Of a stretch of 64,000 nt of DNA, positions 4,935 through 12,098 are shown one piece after another. Position numbers and translations under genes: made by a program. Every line of letters begins with the position of its first letter. Position 1 is the stretch's first letter. The stretch comes from Pectobacterium actinidiae (lineage in GTDB: Bacteria > Pseudomonadota > Gammaproteobacteria > Enterobacterales > Enterobacteriaceae). The notes beneath the pieces are model-generated. The model had not been told where the DNA came from, ran no database searches, and was given only the letters and a program-made list of their open reading frames with translations. Location of the stretch: contig NZ_JRMH01000001.1 in NCBI RefSeq assembly GCF_000803315.1, positions 3,782,001-3,846,000 on the forward strand, read 5' to 3'.

Positions 4935-5065
<131 letters not shown>

Positions 5066-5078
5066 GGAGACGTATTTC

Positions 5079-5768
5079 ATGTCATCTACAGCCCCTAAAC
5101 ACGCGCTAATTACCGGTAGCAGCTCAGGGATCGGTGCCGCCATCACACAAAAATTACTGGCGGAAGGCTGGCGGGTAACAGGTCTGTCACGCAAGCCGGG
5201 TGACTATTCACATCCAAATTTTACCCACCGCGCAGTGGATATCATGGATACGCCCGCGCTGACGGCCATTCTGGACGAGATTACGCAGGTTGATGCCGTC
5301 ATCCATGCCGCTGGCATTATGAAAGCAGCCCCGCTCGGTCAGCTTTCGCTGGAAGACGGTGAAACGCTATGGCGCTTGCATATCAACGCGGCACAGGTGC
5401 TTGCCGATCGTCTGGTCGATAAACTGCCGCAGGGTGGAAGAATTGTACTGCTGGGCAGCCGCACGTCCAGCGGTTCGGCAGGACGTAGCCAGTACGTCAC
5501 AACCAAATCCGCGATGATCGGCATGGCGAGAAGCTGGGCGGCAGAACTGGCCCCACGCGGCATTACGGTAAACATCGTCGCGCCAGGCGCCACAGAAACC
5601 CCGATGTTGACCATGCCGGGGCGGCAAAGTTCTCCGCCGAAGCTGCCGCCAATTGGGCGCTTCATCCAGCCACAGGAAGTGGCCGATCTGGTAGGCTATT
5701 TGCTCTCCCCTTCTGCGGCAGCCATTACCGGCCAGCAGTTGGTGATGTGTGGTGGTGCATCGCTGTAA
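5079..5768 (+). CDS. SDR family NAD(P)-dependent oxidoreductase
   Basis: A 229-residue classical short-chain dehydrogenase/reductase. The nucleotide-binding motif TGSSSGIG is at residues 13-20, the central HAAG replaces the usual NAG, and the catalytic pair is YVTTK (YxxxK) with a preceding serine cluster in GSRTSSGSAG. IVAPGATETPM is the family's substrate-loop region. AAGGAGACG precedes the ATG. As the last gene of the plus-strand cluster, separated from YhcH by repeat copy A, it may oxidise or reduce the sugar acid handled by the cluster (inference); it could also be separately transcribed. Confidence 0.88.
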   Translation: MSSTAPKHALITGSSSGIGAAITQKLLAEGWRVTGLSRKPGDYSHPNFTHRAVDIMDTPALTAILDEITQVDAVIHAAGIMKAAPLGQLSLEDGETLWRLHINAAQVLADRLVDKLPQGGRIVLLGSRTSSGSAGRSQYVTTKSAMIGMARSWAAELAPRGITVNIVAPGATETPMLTMPGRQSSPPKLPPIGRFIQPQEVADLVGYLLSPSAAAITGQQLVMCGGASL

Positions 5769-5828
5769 TCTGATACACAGGAATAGCGGCATGATTTATC
5801 ACAGGACAGTTGCCGCTTATTCCACACC

Positions 5829-5971
5829 TATCCCCGTCATACTTCAAGTTGCATGTGCGTTGGCTGCGTTCGTTACTCGGCTCATCCATGAGCCTCGCCC
5901 TAAAGGGATAACGCTTCGCGTTATTCAAAACGTTCTCGTTTTGTCCTGAAACTCGAATTATTTGGGGTATA
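5829..5971. repeat. Palindromic intergenic repeat, copy B (143 bp)
   Basis: Carries the TATACCC-type termini and an internal hairpin region with TAACGCTTCGCGTTA and AAAACGTTCTCGTTTT arms. By hand alignment it is the reverse complement of copy C (10571-10713) with only five mismatches over 143 bp. Together the two copies bracket the AT-rich accessory segment. Confidence 0.92.
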
Positions 5972-6342
5972 GATAAATTATCGCTAAGTAAATGAGGAAG
6001 ACGGCATCTTGTTATGCCGAGGTTTTTATTTTCCTTAATTTCCAATAAAGAATAAATAGCCCGCCCCCAAAGAAACATTCAAAAAAATTATTATTTATAG
6101 ATAAAAAACAATAAGATAATCATTCCAGCCATAGTTATATCTTCTTTAGCAAGAGAATATTCAGGAGAAACCAAGTTAATTAAAGAAAATAAATTTTTCT
6201 CTTCCTACATTCCCCATCTAGCTTATGTCAAAAAACTCTTTATCAAGCGCGGCACGCCTCCTTACTCTCAGAAAAGTAATATTTTCACCCTGATATTTTA
6301 TCTGGCTGCACACAGCCCTAACACATTGACGGACAGGTCATT
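5972..6342. other. AT-rich intergenic region upstream of the orphan binding protein
   Basis: 371 bp with no credible gene on either strand. It is strongly AT-rich, with many short A and T runs, and must hold the promoter of the gene at 6343. I see no operator I could name. Confidence 0.6.
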
Positions 6343-7404
6343 ATGCATAATAAAAGTCATACAATTCGCCCTCTTCACTCTGGGAACGCTTTACGCCGTA
6401 AATGGCTTGGTTTGACAGTCGCCAGCGCGGTGTTGTTGTCGGGACTCGGTCTGCCAGCTCTGGCACAAGCGGAAGGACAGCTGCGTATCGCGCAGCAATT
6501 CGGCATCGTTTATCTGCTGCTGAATGTCGCGCAGGATCAAAAGCTGATTGAGAAACAGGGCAAGGAAGAAGGACTGGATATCAAGGTCGAGTATCTGCAA
6601 CTTTCCGGTGGCGCCGCGGTGAACGATGCTTTGCTCTCCGGCTCGGTAGATATTGCCGGAGCAGGCACCGGACCGCTATTTACGCTGTGGGATCGTACCA
6701 AAGGGCGTCAGAATGTCCGCGCCGTGGTAGCAACCGGCAACTTCCCGTATTACCTGATCAGTAATAACCCTAACGTCAAAACCATTGCAGACCTGACGGA
6801 CAAAGATCGCATCGCCATTCCTGCGGTCGGTGTCTCCGTGCAATCACGTTTCCTGCAACAGGCCTCCGCCGAGTTGTGGGGCGATAAAGCCTATAATCGT
6901 CTGGATAAACTTCAGGTCGCCATTCCCCATCCAGAAGCTACCGCCGCCATTATCAGCGGCGGAACGGAAATCACCACGCACTTTTCCAACTCCCCTTTTC
7001 AGGAACAAGCGCTGGCAGGCAACCCCAAGGCGCATATTATTCTGAACTCCTATCAAGTCACCGGTGGGCCAAACTCACCAGTAGTACTCTACGCCACTGA
7101 AAAATTCCGCCAGGACAATCCACGAACCTATCGCGCCTTTGTTAATGCCATCGCGGAAGCAGCAGATTTCGCCAGCGCGCACCCTGAAGAGGCCGCTGAC
7201 GCCTTCATCCGCGTGACAAAATCGCGTATCGATCGCGAGCTATTGCTGAACATTCTGAAAAGCCCGGAGGTGTCGTTCAGTGTGACGCCGCACAATACCT
7301 TGCAGCTTGGTCAATTCCTGTATCGCGTTGGAGCGATTAAAAACAAACCGGAATCCGTCAAAGACTACTTCTTCGACGATAAGCACGTCGACGCAGGCAG
7401 CTAA
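6343..7404 (+). CDS. ABC transporter substrate-binding protein, NMT1/TauA/SsuA-like (orphan)
   Basis: A 353-residue periplasmic binding protein. A long basic N-terminus and hydrophobic core end in ALAQA before EGQLRIAQQ, a good signal-peptidase I site near residue 43. The mature part resembles the NitT/TauT and sulfonate-binding family: LRIAQQFG at the first strand, GAAVNDALLSGSVDIAG in the first lobe and a second-lobe region around HPEATAAIISGG. Such proteins deliver sulfonates, taurine, nitrate or pyrimidine precursors to an ABC permease. No permease or ATPase gene lies beside it, so it must share a transporter encoded elsewhere or be a relic. Its base composition is less AT-rich than the two genes downstream. 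Confidence 0.85.
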   Translation: MHNKSHTIRPLHSGNALRRKWLGLTVASAVLLSGLGLPALAQAEGQLRIAQQFGIVYLLLNVAQDQKLIEKQGKEEGLDIKVEYLQLSGGAAVNDALLSGSVDIAGAGTGPLFTLWDRTKGRQNVRAVVATGNFPYYLISNNPNVKTIADLTDKDRIAIPAVGVSVQSRFLQQASAELWGDKAYNRLDKLQVAIPHPEATAAIISGGTEITTHFSNSPFQEQALAGNPKAHIILNSYQVTGGPNSPVVLYATEKFRQDNPRTYRAFVNAIAEAADFASAHPEEAADAFIRVTKSRIDRELLLNILKSPEVSFSVTPHNTLQLGQFLYRVGAIKNKPESVKDYFFDDKHVDAGS

Positions 7405-7421
7405 TCACATCGCGTGTGGCG

Positions 7422-7446
7422 AGCCTGCATGAGAAAGATGCAGGCT
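7422..7446 (+). terminator. Hairpin after the substrate-binding protein gene
   Basis: AGCCTGCAT and ATGCAGGCT form a perfect 9-bp stem around a GAGAAAG loop, 18 nt after the stop codon. No T-run follows, so intrinsic termination would be weak. Confidence 0.5.
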
Positions 7447-7767
7447 TGCTCAGATCCCTTCTTCCCCCCCTCGGCCTTCCATCATCAGTCTGGCAGCTAT
7501 CGCTGCATGTTAGTAAAAAATAAAATAACAGTAATTTTTGATGAATTAATCTCAGACTAAATATTTTTAAATAAGTATCCCCATGAAAATACTAGCTAAT
7601 AAAAAAACACCAGAAAAAATTAATAATACGCTTTATATCTAATAGCAGTAACAGTAACGCTCTCACCTTGAATAAAAAAAACACAGAACTATACTGGAAA
7701 AAAATCACTTTTAACCACCATGCGACATTAATTTAACACTACACATAGAAAACTAAGGAAGGTATTT
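7447..7767. other. AT-rich intergenic region upstream of the dehydrogenase-like/desaturase pair
   Basis: 321 bp without a plausible gene. It becomes very AT-rich after about 7510 and presumably holds the promoter of the two-gene unit. A strong ribosome site (AAGGAAGG) lies at its end. Confidence 0.6.
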
Positions 7768-9384
7768 ATGGACTGCAACGACAAGATTAAGAAAATAATA
7801 GAAATGGAATTGTTTGATACCCGATCCAGGCATCATATTTCATCACGTGATTATGTGGATTTAACGGTAAAGAGAATGAGAGTTATTTTTCATGAAGGAT
7901 TGATTAATAACGATATGTGGCTAGGGCAAAACAAGCAATCAAAGTTTGAGGAACTCTGCCAGAATATCGCTTTGTTCGGTACTCTGGATCTGTCACTAGG
8001 CATCTCTCTCGCCGCACACCTTATCGCGGGAAATGTGATATTGACGCAATCCAGCCCTCAACAGATAAGTCAGTATCGTGATGAAGTAATTAACTTAGAC
8101 AGGATCTATTCTTTCTGCTGTACAGAAATAGCCTGTGGCACGAACTTACGCAACATAAAAACAACGGTAACCTACGATCATACTCAAAAAAGGCTGTTTC
8201 TCCATTCCCCCACTCCTGACTCTTATAAATTCTGGATAGGCAATGCCCTTTATTCTGCCACCGTCGGAATGGTGCTTGCGAGGCTTATTGTTAACAATCG
8301 TGACGAGGGCATTCACTGGTTTCGAGTGCCTCTACGCGATGAAGAAAATGGCAGTCTGCTACCGGGGATCCGGGCTATTTCCTGCGATCCTAAAGGCGGT
8401 GTGGAAGGCTATCAGATTTCGGGCATTCGGTTTGATCAAGTCAGCTTACCACCTGACGCAATGATGCAACGTCATGCTGAGATTACGCAACAGGGAACAT
8501 TTTATAGTCAGTTTTCAAAATCCCAACGTTTTGCCTCACTGTTTGAGACATTTTTACAAGAGCGTATTTTTCCATTAAGTAGTGGTAGCCTTTCAGCAGC
8601 CGTTGCTCTTTATATTACTTATAAATTCTCCGAACATCGTGTCACATCATTGAAACCGACATATCAAACCTTAATTATGGAGCCATTATTCTGCCAAAGG
8701 CTCTACCCAGAGTTATTAAAAGCATTTTCACTACATGTTTTAAATAAGGTTATAATTCATCAATTCAAAAAAAACTGGGACGATAAAAGCACACATAAAA
8801 AATTGCAAATTTTAGTCGCTGTTGGTAAGTATCTAGGGTCATCATTAGGATTAGACATCCTACGTAAATGCCGAGCAATGTGTGGGGCACAAGGTTTACA
8901 CCACTATAACCAGATTATGTCTATGCAAATTGACTATGAAGCTAATATTACTTTTGCAGGCGACAACTCCGTCATGTCTTATCAAATAGCCAAATATATG
9001 ATCGGACTCGATAGATTCAAAAACGATGATGTTGTACCCCAAAATATTGCGCAAGAGGTAGAAAAGAGCGTTGTTGCCGATTGTCATCAACGTCGATTTA
9101 CCCATGCAGAGGCACAGGCTCTCACCTATACCTATGCCTTGGATCTTATTATTCAGGAAATACAAGAAAACAGGATTGTGGATAAGGAAATACTTCAAGA
9201 TCTTAGTAATAGCTTTATCCCTTACATGTTGGAAAAACAGTCTTTTAACATTATTACTCCAACGATAGAGAAGATAAACTATTTGATGAAGATCCTTACT
9301 CCTCCCATTGAGTTGATCACGGCGCCGATAATCAACCAAAACTACACCGAGATATTTACCTCAGAGTTATACACGACATCATAG
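7768..9384 (+). CDS. Acyl-CoA oxidase/dehydrogenase-like flavoprotein lacking the canonical catalytic Glu
   Basis: A 538-residue protein of the acyl-CoA dehydrogenase superfamily, closest in pattern to acyl-CoA oxidases. The flavin/substrate region TEIACGTNLRNIKTTVTYD starts at residue 119, followed by HWFRVPLRD and LPGIRAISCDPKGG, and the C-terminal signature is CRAMCGAQGL then TFAGDN. In oxidases the last motif reads FEGEN, whose first Glu is the catalytic base; here that position is Ala397 (codon GCA at 8956-8958). It is shorter than the usual 650-residue oxidases. AAGGAAGG precedes the ATG. It is AT-rich compared with flanking genes and is followed after 28 bp by a desaturase. It may be a non-dehydrogenating member (oxygenase-like, structural or acyl-binding), or use a base elsewhere. 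Confidence 0.8.
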   Translation: MDCNDKIKKIIEMELFDTRSRHHISSRDYVDLTVKRMRVIFHEGLINNDMWLGQNKQSKFEELCQNIALFGTLDLSLGISLAAHLIAGNVILTQSSPQQISQYRDEVINLDRIYSFCCTEIACGTNLRNIKTTVTYDHTQKRLFLHSPTPDSYKFWIGNALYSATVGMVLARLIVNNRDEGIHWFRVPLRDEENGSLLPGIRAISCDPKGGVEGYQISGIRFDQVSLPPDAMMQRHAEITQQGTFYSQFSKSQRFASLFETFLQERIFPLSSGSLSAAVALYITYKFSEHRVTSLKPTYQTLIMEPLFCQRLYPELLKAFSLHVLNKVIIHQFKKNWDDKSTHKKLQILVAVGKYLGSSLGLDILRKCRAMCGAQGLHHYNQIMSMQIDYEANITFAGDNSVMSYQIAKYMIGLDRFKNDDVVPQNIAQEVEKSVVADCHQRRFTHAEAQALTYTYALDLIIQEIQENRIVDKEILQDLSNSFIPYMLEKQSFNIITPTIEKINYLMKILTPPIELITAPIINQNYTEIFTSELYTTS

Positions 9385-9412
9385 TTCATTATTTAAACCT
9401 GCATTATTACTT

Positions 9413-10477
9413 ATGGATAAATATATCATGGACATATCAAAATCAAATATTGAATACAATGATGATATTTCAAGAGCAAAAATAATAAGAAAAGTCATCA
9501 TTGATCATGGAAAAGTGCTACGAAAAAGACATCCGATTCTTAACCATCAGGATTTACTAGGATTTAGCGCATGCACTGCGATTACAGTTATTATATTACT
9601 AAGCTCTTTATGTTATCTTTATGGGTATATTCCTTGGTGGGTTTGTTTGATAATAAATACCATATGTATCTCTATCGCGCATGAAATTGAACATGATTTA
9701 ATACACAATCTGTATTTCAGAAAAAACCGATTTATACATCACATAATGATGGCGATCGTCTGGTTAATGCGCCCAAGTACAGCCAGCCCTTGGATGCGCC
9801 GCGACGTACATTTACTGCATCATCAGGTATCAGGATCTGAAAATGACGTGGAAGAGAAGTTCTTGGGAAATGGACGAAAATGGGGACTTCTTCGGATTTT
9901 AATGCTCAGTGATTTAGTGGTTGCTGCTGTAGTTATGATGCTTAATGCCAGGTCGGAGCTAGAGAGAAAGAAACTACTTTCATTTTCGGTAAAAGCATTT
10001 TTTCCTTTTGCCGTATTCTATTCACTAATCTGGTATTCATTTTTAATTTTTCATAGCATAAATATTTATTCAACATTAACAGAAACTCCCGTCATGTGGT
10101 CTGATAGAACAACGACCGTAATGAATTTTATTGACGTTGCCGTAGTTATTATTGTTGGCCCCAATATGCTATGGTCATTTTGCCTGCACTTTATATCTTC
10201 AAATTTACATTATCACGGTGACAATGAAAGCGGTAATGTCATTCAGGAAACACAAGTGCTTAATCCCTGGTGGCTCTACCCCATTAACTTATTCTGTTTT
10301 AACTTTGGCAGCACACACGCCATACACCACTTCGTTGTGAATGAACCCTTTTACATAAGGCAGCTATCTGCCCCCGTCGCTCATAGGATAATGAAAGAGA
10401 TGGGAGTGAGATTTAACGATTTTGGCTCCTTCAGCCGTGCTAACCGCTGGAAGCAAGGTCAACAAAAGCATGAATAG
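9413..10477 (+). CDS. Membrane fatty-acid desaturase-like protein
   Basis: A 354-residue integral membrane protein with the three His boxes of di-iron desaturases and hydroxylases: HEIEH (90-94), HLLHH (133-137) and HAIHH (302-306), plus an extra HYH (266-268). Hydrophobic segments lie near 50-90, 160-178, 193-218 and 238-262. These enzymes use O2 and electrons from a ferredoxin, cytochrome b5 or flavoprotein to introduce double bonds or hydroxyls into lipid chains; no reductase is fused. The ATGs at 9413 and 9428 both lack a clear ribosome site, so coupling to the upstream gene is likely. It is AT-rich, suggesting acquisition together with its neighbour. The substrate is unknown. Confidence 0.85.
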   Translation: MDKYIMDISKSNIEYNDDISRAKIIRKVIIDHGKVLRKRHPILNHQDLLGFSACTAITVIILLSSLCYLYGYIPWWVCLIINTICISIAHEIEHDLIHNLYFRKNRFIHHIMMAIVWLMRPSTASPWMRRDVHLLHHQVSGSENDVEEKFLGNGRKWGLLRILMLSDLVVAAVVMMLNARSELERKKLLSFSVKAFFPFAVFYSLIWYSFLIFHSINIYSTLTETPVMWSDRTTTVMNFIDVAVVIIVGPNMLWSFCLHFISSNLHYHGDNESGNVIQETQVLNPWWLYPINLFCFNFGSTHAIHHFVVNEPFYIRQLSAPVAHRIMKEMGVRFNDFGSFSRANRWKQGQQKHE

Positions 10478-10570
10478 GCGTTAAAGCATGACGCGTACGC
10501 AAGTTCTACACAGGCTTCAACGATCAAAGCATACGTTTTGGACGTAGACCTCTTGTTATCTTTATTACTA

Positions 10571-10713
10571 TATACCCTAAATAATTCGAGTTTCAGGACA
10601 AAACGAGAACGTTTTGAATAACGCGAAGCGTTAGCCCTTTAGGGCGAGGCTCATGGATGAGCCGAGTAACGAATGAAGCCAACGCACATGCAACTTGAAG
10701 TATGACGGGTATA
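10571..10713. repeat. Palindromic intergenic repeat, copy C (143 bp)
   Basis: Begins TATACCCTAAATAATTCG and ends TATGACGGGTATA. It is an inverted copy of the repeat at 5829-5971 (five mismatches by hand). It lies between the desaturase and the convergent LacI-type gene, where its internal stems could also stop transcription from either side. Confidence 0.92.
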
Positions 10714-10739
10714 TTTCATCGGTGACACTTCCCCCCCTG

Positions 10740-11930
10740 CTAGCTGCTAGCGCGGGGTTCAAAGATAAATTTCACCTTTTCCAGTGCGGGTGGGTGCTCG
10801 TCGTTGTCCATCATGGCGAGCACCAAACGCCCGACCTCCGCGCCCAACTTTTCATAGTCAAGCCGCATCGCGGTCAGCGCAGGGAACGTGTGCTCACATT
10901 GTTCAGAACCATCAAGACAGGCGATCGCCAGATCGTAAGGGACTTTCATCAGGCGGCGTTGGCATTCAAAGAGCGCGCCCAGCGCGATCTCCTCATGGCT
11001 ACAGATAATCGCGTCCAGCTCCGGCTGATTTTGCAGCAGCTCCGTGAGTGCATAGCGTCCAAACTGTAAATTGGGAGCTTCTGGGATCGTAATTTTCAAA
11101 TCCGCATTATGGTAATGCGCCAGCATGGCTTTATTCCAGCCGTTCAATTGCTGTTTTTGCAAACGGTTATCCGTATGAGCACCAATATAAGCTACGTGAC
11201 GATACCCCTTTTCCAGCAGCGACATCGTCAGTTGCTCTGCCGCGTCGGCAAGAGCGATATCAATATTGATATTTGCGCTCAGCACATCAGCGCCCGAGAC
11301 GTTCACCGTAATGACGTTACTGGCCTGGATGATATCCTGGGTACGTTGTGAAAGCTGCGCACTGAACAGCACCAGTGCGGCTGGCCGTTGCTGTAGGAGC
11401 TTTTCGACCATTCCCGCTTCAGTATGCTGGCGATATTCATGGCAGCCCATGATTAACGGAATGTTGTGTTTGCCCACGGCCTGTTGCAGCGCCTGCACAA
11501 AACGAACGCTGGTGCGATCTTGCTGAAAAGGATAAAGCACCGCAATAGCAGGCTGATAGGCTGATGCCAGTGCACCTGCGGCCTGATTCGGTACATAGCC
11601 CAGCGTTTTTATCGCATCATTAATTTTCTTCTGCGTGGCATCAGAGACCAGTCCCGGCTCCCGCAAGGCGCGGGACACCGTCATCGCACCGACACCGGCG
11701 TGGTTCGCGATGTCCTGTAGCGTGACGCGATGGGTGCTCTCGGTAAGCTGGCTGGCTTCTTGATTGGGTTCATAGCCTAATGCTCTGGCGGCCAGTTCCA
11801 CTTTGCTGCGTAACTTTTCAGAAACCAGATCGGGTTTGCGCATTACGCGCGATACCGTCATCGTCCCTACGCCCGCGTAGTCAGCGACATCCTGTAGCGT
11901 AACCTTACCGGTACTGCGACGCTTACGCAT
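10740..11930 (-). CDS. LacI-type repressor with two tandem HTH domains
   Basis: A 396-residue regulator, longer than the usual 330-340 because the LacI DNA-binding headpiece is duplicated. HTH 1 spans about residues 10-57 (VTLQDVADYAGVGTMTVSRV) and HTH 2 about 69-116 (VTLQDIANHAGVGAMTVSRA); each ends in GYxPNQ. The usual periplasmic-binding-protein-like effector domain follows from about 127. The start at 11930 is preceded by GAGGAAG; in-frame ATGs further upstream (e.g. 11999) have no better site. It is divergent from the PTS/aldolase operon and presumably controls it. Similarity between the two headpieces is visible at DNA level, consistent with an internal duplication. Confidence 0.9.
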   Translation of the reverse strand: MRKRRSTGKVTLQDVADYAGVGTMTVSRVMRKPDLVSEKLRSKVELAARALGYEPNQEASQLTESTHRVTLQDIANHAGVGAMTVSRALREPGLVSDATQKKINDAIKTLGYVPNQAAGALASAYQPAIAVLYPFQQDRTSVRFVQALQQAVGKHNIPLIMGCHEYRQHTEAGMVEKLLQQRPAALVLFSAQLSQRTQDIIQASNVITVNVSGADVLSANINIDIALADAAEQLTMSLLEKGYRHVAYIGAHTDNRLQKQQLNGWNKAMLAHYHNADLKITIPEAPNLQFGRYALTELLQNQPELDAIICSHEEIALGALFECQRRLMKVPYDLAIACLDGSEQCEHTFPALTAMRLDYEKLGAEVGRLVLAMMDNDEHPPALEKVKFIFEPRASS

Positions 11931-12098
11931 GTTCACTTCCTCTCCATTCGTCATTTTCCCATCGCACAGAGGTATTACACCGTCCGAGCATGCTGCCACG
12001 CCGTGTCATCGCCGTTCATAGTGTGCCTGTGACGACACGGGGGAACAAATAATGGCTCCGCTTGTGCTAAGCCGGTCACAGTTAATGATACGCATATC

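Follow-up and report, generated by a model that had tools for sequence, protein, structure and literature searches.

Enzymes of the UndB family decarboxylate fatty acids oxidatively to terminal alkenes, and homologues span 36-77% identity to Pme-UndB (PMC12746148). Among acyl-CoA dehydrogenases (ACADs), the MCAD type has its catalytic base in the J-K loop; in LCAD the base, Glu291, lies on helix G (residues 279-317), 26 residues before the helix end (PMC11153573). The Yersinia phage vB_YenM_42.18 was described as carrying a fatty acid desaturase and an acyl CoA oxidase, possibly benefiting host fatty acid metabolism (PMC9224151). We compared with these systems a two-gene unit of Pectobacterium actinidiae, located in a 64,000-nucleotide stretch of contig NZ_JRMH01000001.1 (positions 3,782,001 to 3,846,000; hereafter the window). 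Its first gene encodes an acyl-CoA-oxidase-fold flavoprotein and its second a UndB-like membrane protein. The pair might be a horizontally moving two-enzyme cassette that converts an acyl substrate to a hydrocarbon or a related compound, a proposal to which we give slightly less than an even chance.

The first gene (7768..9384, plus strand) encodes 538 amino acids with a Pfam ACOX_C_alpha1 domain. ACOX1 was the best match in the Protein Data Bank both by sequence and by Foldseek, and the structure model, with a pLDDT of 91, had the ACAD/ACOX fold. The motifs TE..GT, W.G and CG..G, which we take to line the FAD site, align with those of ACOX1, a representative of the peroxisomal acyl-CoA oxidases. 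The flavoprotein differs from ACOX1 in its length (about 660 residues in the latter) and in having no C-terminal Pfam domain detected; PF01756 was not matched, and residues 427-536 were largely helical in the model. It also has an Ala, A397, in place of the Glu in TFEGEN, which is the usual catalytic residue of acyl-CoA oxidases in the J-K loop. The original prediction of an acyl-CoA dehydrogenase-like flavoprotein can thus be refined to an acyl-CoA-oxidase fold with a base position that is probably relocated.

The probable relocation was suggested by an alignment of 56 rows, consisting of the window protein and 55 of its 103 matches, with the distant rows P0091-P0103 left out. E265, R266 and A397 were invariant in all 56. 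As a control, six of six ordinary bacterial ACOX-type proteins had Gly where the window protein has E265, and Glu where it has A397. In the model, helices 382-394 and 400-414 flank A397. E265 begins helix 264-290, which a one-residue break separates from helix 251-262, and stands 25 residues before the helix end. Matched by this distance, the model suggests that E265 sits where LCAD and IVD place the base. Like these enzymes, the flavoprotein would carry its Glu on the helix corresponding to G, and it has no Glu at the catalytic position of the J-K loop. However, overall identity to them is low (15% over 365 aligned residues in the structural comparison with IVD), and the position of the base could reflect either shared origin or convergence.

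The second gene (9413..10477, plus strand) lies 28 bp from the first and encodes a UndB-like integral-membrane diiron protein of 354 amino acids. It had been called a three-His-box desaturase, and Pfam FA_desaturase was indeed matched, but closer comparison placed it with the UndB-like 1-alkene synthase family instead of generic desaturases. Over nearly the whole length it was 50-51% identical to P0179, a 352-amino-acid protein of Ectopseudomonas hydrolytica with R121, Y188 and R246 exactly at the Pme-UndB positions (PMC12746148). We took P0179, by residue numbering only, as Pme-UndB or a near-copy, and the identity to it falls inside the published range of UndB homologues. Residues were surveyed in 139 sequences, many of them near-copies, comprising the window protein, the 120 best of 1880 matches and 18 loci. 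Nine His residues (H94, 98, 133, 136, 137, 266, 302, 305 and 306) were invariant with gaps set aside, and their equal count in PMC12746148 is the basis for regarding them as probable metal ligands. The ion-pair residues E85, R112, R121, D137 and E139 were kept in 139 of 139 sequences. The His and ion-pair residues are shared with UndB of Pseudomonas (Pmen_4370) and its Acinetobacter, Paraglaciecola, Nocardia and Leptospira homologues. Unlike these, the window protein carries Y188F and R246W, has a regular partner gene, and belongs to an AT-rich and phage-borne group; its activity is a prediction. In a quick tree of 52 rows, rooted by choice on L045-L049, an enterobacterial clade, a Pseudomonas clade and the viral contig L141 joined at an open fork, and L043-L049 fell outside it; L141 and P0188 formed long branches. 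The second gene probably belongs to the UndB family or its close kin.

The two genes were adjacent and in the same order in the window, in two further Pectobacterium loci (L050 and L051), in Providencia alcalifaciens (L054) and Yersinia massiliensis (L055), and in phage and viral contigs (L136-L139), and the intergenic gap among these nine loci was 28-54 bp. Both reading frames were open in all seven loci checked. In the window, the GC contents of the pair (0.401 and 0.377) were the two lowest among 42 non-overlapping open reading frames (ORFs) of at least 200 amino acids, whose mean was 0.530 with a standard deviation of 0.043. Across seven loci examined, the pair ranged from 0.34 to 0.40. 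The fetched stretches around it had 0.46-0.50 in Pectobacterium and phage and 0.40 in Providencia and Y. massiliensis, so the pair stands out less in the latter two. Between L051 and the window the pair was far more diverged than its neighbors, with identities of 86% for the flavoprotein and 80% for the UndB-like protein, compared with 99% and 95% for the flanking SDR and LacI-type genes. The dN/dS ratio was 0.05-0.13 in six Pectobacterium comparisons, where dS was near saturation (0.87-1.99), and 0.10-0.31 in six others. From its divergence relative to its neighbors, GC content, open frames and dN/dS, the pair was therefore most likely acquired horizontally and kept under purifying selection. 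That it is a mobile cassette we regard as very probable.

An order-wide sample of 394 genomes gave flavoprotein matches in five, three of them weak (27-29%). The strong ones were the genome of the window and Yersinia alsatica (G280; L052/L053/L075), both of which also have a UndB-like gene; adjacency cannot be shown in the latter because each gene sits at the end of a different contig. Seven further genomes had only a UndB-like gene, at 41-45%. In a family sample of 392 genomes, the flavoprotein was found in nine (seven weak, 25-31%) and the UndB-like gene in four. As a separate observation, Providencia has an O-methyltransferase gene (PF00891; L054:13776-14804) about 1.1 kb beyond the pair on its downstream side, and none of the ORFs in the other compared loci clustered with it.

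In the Yersinia phage vB_YenM_42.18 (OM046624), genes 037 and 036 are the same pair as in the window, located between gpV and gpS and antisense to them. The viral contigs L137, L138 and L139 from IMG/VR have the pair at the same gpV-gpS site, the likeness of their flanking ORFs to gpV and gpS being judged by eye. For both genes, the aligned proteins of L136 and L139 are the same. The phage pair has a GC content of 0.35-0.36, compared with 0.48 and 0.46 for the fetched stretches of L136 and L137. In lying between structural genes, on the opposite strand and with odd composition, the Yersinia phage-type loci L136-L139 fit a moron. No phage genes were seen among the scanned neighbors of the pair in the window or in the chromosomal copies of Providencia and Y. 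massiliensis, and the window copy is surrounded by SDR, binding-protein and LacI-type genes. The families, residues, adjacency, phage carriage and purifying selection are supported directly. The part of the phage account used here links the genes neither to UndB nor to a moved base (PMC9224151), and our literature search found no paper joining UndB and Yersinia. Two other viral records deserve mention. A metagenomic viral contig, L141, has a UndB-like gene (7980-9068) near tail/baseplate genes, a PF00144 protein and mutS, with no partner found. Records of 'Acinetobacter phage MD-2021a' (L174), apparently mislabelled, have a UndB-like gene in an ordinary chromosomal setting.

Both genes were present in 3 of 25 Pectobacterium genomes, that of the window included, and neither in the other 22, in agreement with the earlier view of an imported, AT-rich, conserved two-gene unit. 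In the window the pair lies between an SDR oxidoreductase gene (5079..5768, plus strand) and a regulator gene (10740..11999, minus strand) that we presume, from the look of its sequence and with no family scan, to be of LacI type. This interval (5079-11999; L143-L162) is a slot of variable content in the genus, as shown by the 23 genomes, out of 25, with an SDR match of at least 96%. The slot was empty in seven of the 23, with about 50 bp from SDR to LacI, and held only the binding-protein gene in three. A glycyl-radical-enzyme-like gene, its activase and an SMR-type gene (names read from the sequences, with no family scan) preceded LacI in three genomes. The same set occurred in three others with no LacI match within the 13 kb fetched, and together with the binding protein in two. 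None of the tested genes adjoined the SDR gene in two genomes. The pair occupied the slot in the remaining three, namely the window, G004 (L051) and G011 (L050); in G011 the LacI and PTS genes gave no match and the binding protein was reduced to a fragment.

The binding-protein gene (6343..7404, plus strand) encodes an SsuA/NMT1-like periplasmic protein of 353 amino acids. Its GC content of 0.535 is normal for the window, so that the pair is AT-rich as claimed but the whole 4.6 kb between the repeats is not. The binding protein has a history separate from the pair, because it was found in the slot without the pair in five other genomes of the genus.

Relatives of the flavoprotein have other partners. 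In a tblastn survey of 22 loci from named genomes, all 13 Pseudomonas loci (L056-L060, L062, L063, L065, L066, L068-L071) had a P450-similar sequence 20-42 bp after the flavoprotein stop, followed by a RidA-like gene, and 10 of them also had a gene clustering with the alpha/beta-hydrolase of L059, the scanned member. No UndB-like match was found in the fetched flanks (up to 10 kb) of any of the 13. The Pseudomonas flavoproteins are homologous to that of the window (41-46%) and likewise lie directly upstream of an O2-activating iron enzyme. The rows differ in having P450 in place of the UndB-like partner, and in their extra RidA-like and often hydrolase genes. Four of the 103 flavoprotein homologues were themselves P450 fusions; one such fusion is presumably the protein named CYP221A1. 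None of six actinomycete loci had a UndB-like or P450 partner directly downstream. In two of them (L064 and L073) the opposite strand carried, a few kb away, a P450 of weak similarity (26-28%); a hydrolase lay directly downstream in L072, and its homologue by clustering in L067. On a quick flavoprotein tree of 45 rows, five labels needed four changes, the least possible. Nothing on a Pseudomonas ACOX-like/P450/RidA gene row was found in the literature search.

We infer from these comparisons an enzyme activity, an order of steps, a product and a host benefit. In Yersinia the cassette would travel as a moron of P2-like temperate phages, and in Pectobacterium it would have lodged in a variable chromosomal slot. 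The first enzyme would dehydrogenate an acyl thioester of CoA or of a carrier, with E265 on helix G serving as the base in the manner of LCAD and IVD. The second, as a UndB or a close relative, would cleave a fatty acid oxidatively or oxidize it otherwise. Acting together, the two would convert a fatty acyl chain to a hydrocarbon of an unusual kind, possibly with extra unsaturation, or to a related oxidized lipid. An alkene-type product has somewhat poorer odds than the cassette proposal as a whole, and the order of the steps is held with lower confidence still. Less likely than an alkene-type product, too, is the full proposition, in which P2-like phages would provide their lysogens with a cassette of a moved-base acyl dehydrogenase and a UndB-type decarboxylase that would yield a volatile alkene or diene new to science, with the oxygenase slot filled by a diiron enzyme or P450.

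Several observations weigh against this proposal. R246 is replaced by Trp in 35 of the 139 UndB-like sequences, the window included, and Y188 by Phe in 34 of those 35. The 35 come from Pectobacterium, Yersinia, Providencia, Serratia, phage copies and some unnamed sources. Y188 also differs in the class II-like L043-L049, where R246 does not, and L043 and L044 show the S188/G160 pair given for the class II segment (PMC12746148). Both R246 and Y188 belong to the distal carboxylate site of UndB, simulated with lauric acid in that study, so the substrate or reaction of the window protein may differ from that of UndB. An acyl-CoA oxidase would yield H2O2, which inhibits UndB (PMC12746148); this either speaks against the pathway or favors a dehydrogenase, and the first enzyme is likelier a dehydrogenase than an oxidase because H2O2 would harm UndB. 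No thioesterase or ligase adjoins the pair, as had been pointed out, even though UndB acts on free acids and ACADs act on thioesters; a step leading from the thioester product to the free acid is missing. Around E265, the single-sequence and profile alignments to ACOX1 disagree by a shift of two residues. The P450 and RidA-like row in Pseudomonas hints at a different, perhaps nitrogen-containing product. The flavoprotein of Y. alsatica is split over two frames. Finally, the genes were not always separate, nor was the pair core or of normal composition, but two of the four family-sample genomes with the UndB-like gene lack its partner, having no strong flavoprotein match and none adjoining. These two are Serratia-like, since the tree groups them with proteins named as Serratia.

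The flavoprotein could instead act as an electron donor or redox partner, passing electrons from an acyl thioester to a diiron or P450 center. The partner survey agrees with this, since in proteobacterial loci readable on both sides the flavoprotein adjoins an iron enzyme that activates O2 and has either of two unrelated folds, UndB-like (the window and eight other enterobacterial or phage loci) or P450, and it is occasionally fused to the latter. However, Pfam detected no FMN, ferredoxin or ferredoxin-reductase domain, the actinomycete loci lacked such a partner directly downstream, and the possible catalytic base is invariant, as in a substrate-oxidizing enzyme. ACAD-fold proteins are known to pass their electrons to ETF or O2. 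The electron-donor role raised in the original prediction is still conceivable but unlikely, and is not the best reading.

About equally unlikely, the pair could remodel membrane or envelope lipids by acyl desaturation or hydroxylation, releasing no hydrocarbon. Temperate phages often bring lysogenic-conversion genes, the FA_desaturase match would suit such a role, and the R246W and Y188F changes suggest a substrate other than free fatty acid. Against this, UndB enzymes of classes I and II, which are the closest characterized relatives, act as decarboxylases, and the invariant R121 and E139 are reported to be required for activity, their roles being backed by mutants (PMC12746148).

We consider it improbable that the pair serves a prophage as a module for fitness or exclusion, acting through a lipid product in superinfection exclusion or competitor inhibition. 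Its antisense position between structural genes of P2-like phages would be in keeping with this, as would the reported activity of a related volatile, 1-undecene, against another bacterium (PMC10614000). But PADLOC gave a single weak match (ZorA, E 0.00099, flavoprotein residues 402-504), PHROGs gave none, and the copies in the window, Providencia and Y. massiliensis have no phage genes among the neighbors scanned.

The binding-protein gene and the pair lie, as originally stated, between two 143-bp inverted repeats (5829..5971 and 10571..10713) that differ at exactly five positions; the inverted match stretches to 150 nucleotides with eight mismatches (95%). Although they are inverted copies of each other, each reads as a chain of short hairpins and not as one long palindrome. 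A third related copy (4935..5063), with a core presumably of ERIC type, lies upstream of the SDR gene. A search of the genome with the 5829-5971 copy gave 63 matches, with 40 of 142 first-look candidates scored. Because of these matches and the third copy, the repeat is a dispersed element, not special to the 5972-10570 segment. The two flanking copies are 97% identical at full length and the next scored copy 85%, while shorter matches elsewhere rise to 100%, across 68 bp. The closeness of the two flanking copies might stem from local duplication or from gene conversion. The idea that the repeats bound an invertible or transposable 4.6-kb segment with the genes as cargo draws on this inverted pair, each the other's closest scored full-length copy, but is most improbable: the repeat is found genome-wide, the three gene-sized ORFs inside match non-recombinase families, the pair has the same orientation in all three Pectobacterium genomes carrying it, and neither L050 nor L051 has a repeat beside it in the slot comparison. 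The repeats beside the gene pair thus look incidental, neither a bracket nor a means of inversion.

UndB is an enzyme studied for biofuel, and it was run with a cyanobacterial ferredoxin system that is not its natural partner (PMC12746148). A conserved, phage-carried neighbor gene, whose relatives are paired with P450 in Pseudomonas, offers a genetic lead on the natural role of UndB-type enzymes. If the proposed function is true, lysogenic conversion would extend to volatile or lipid chemistry.

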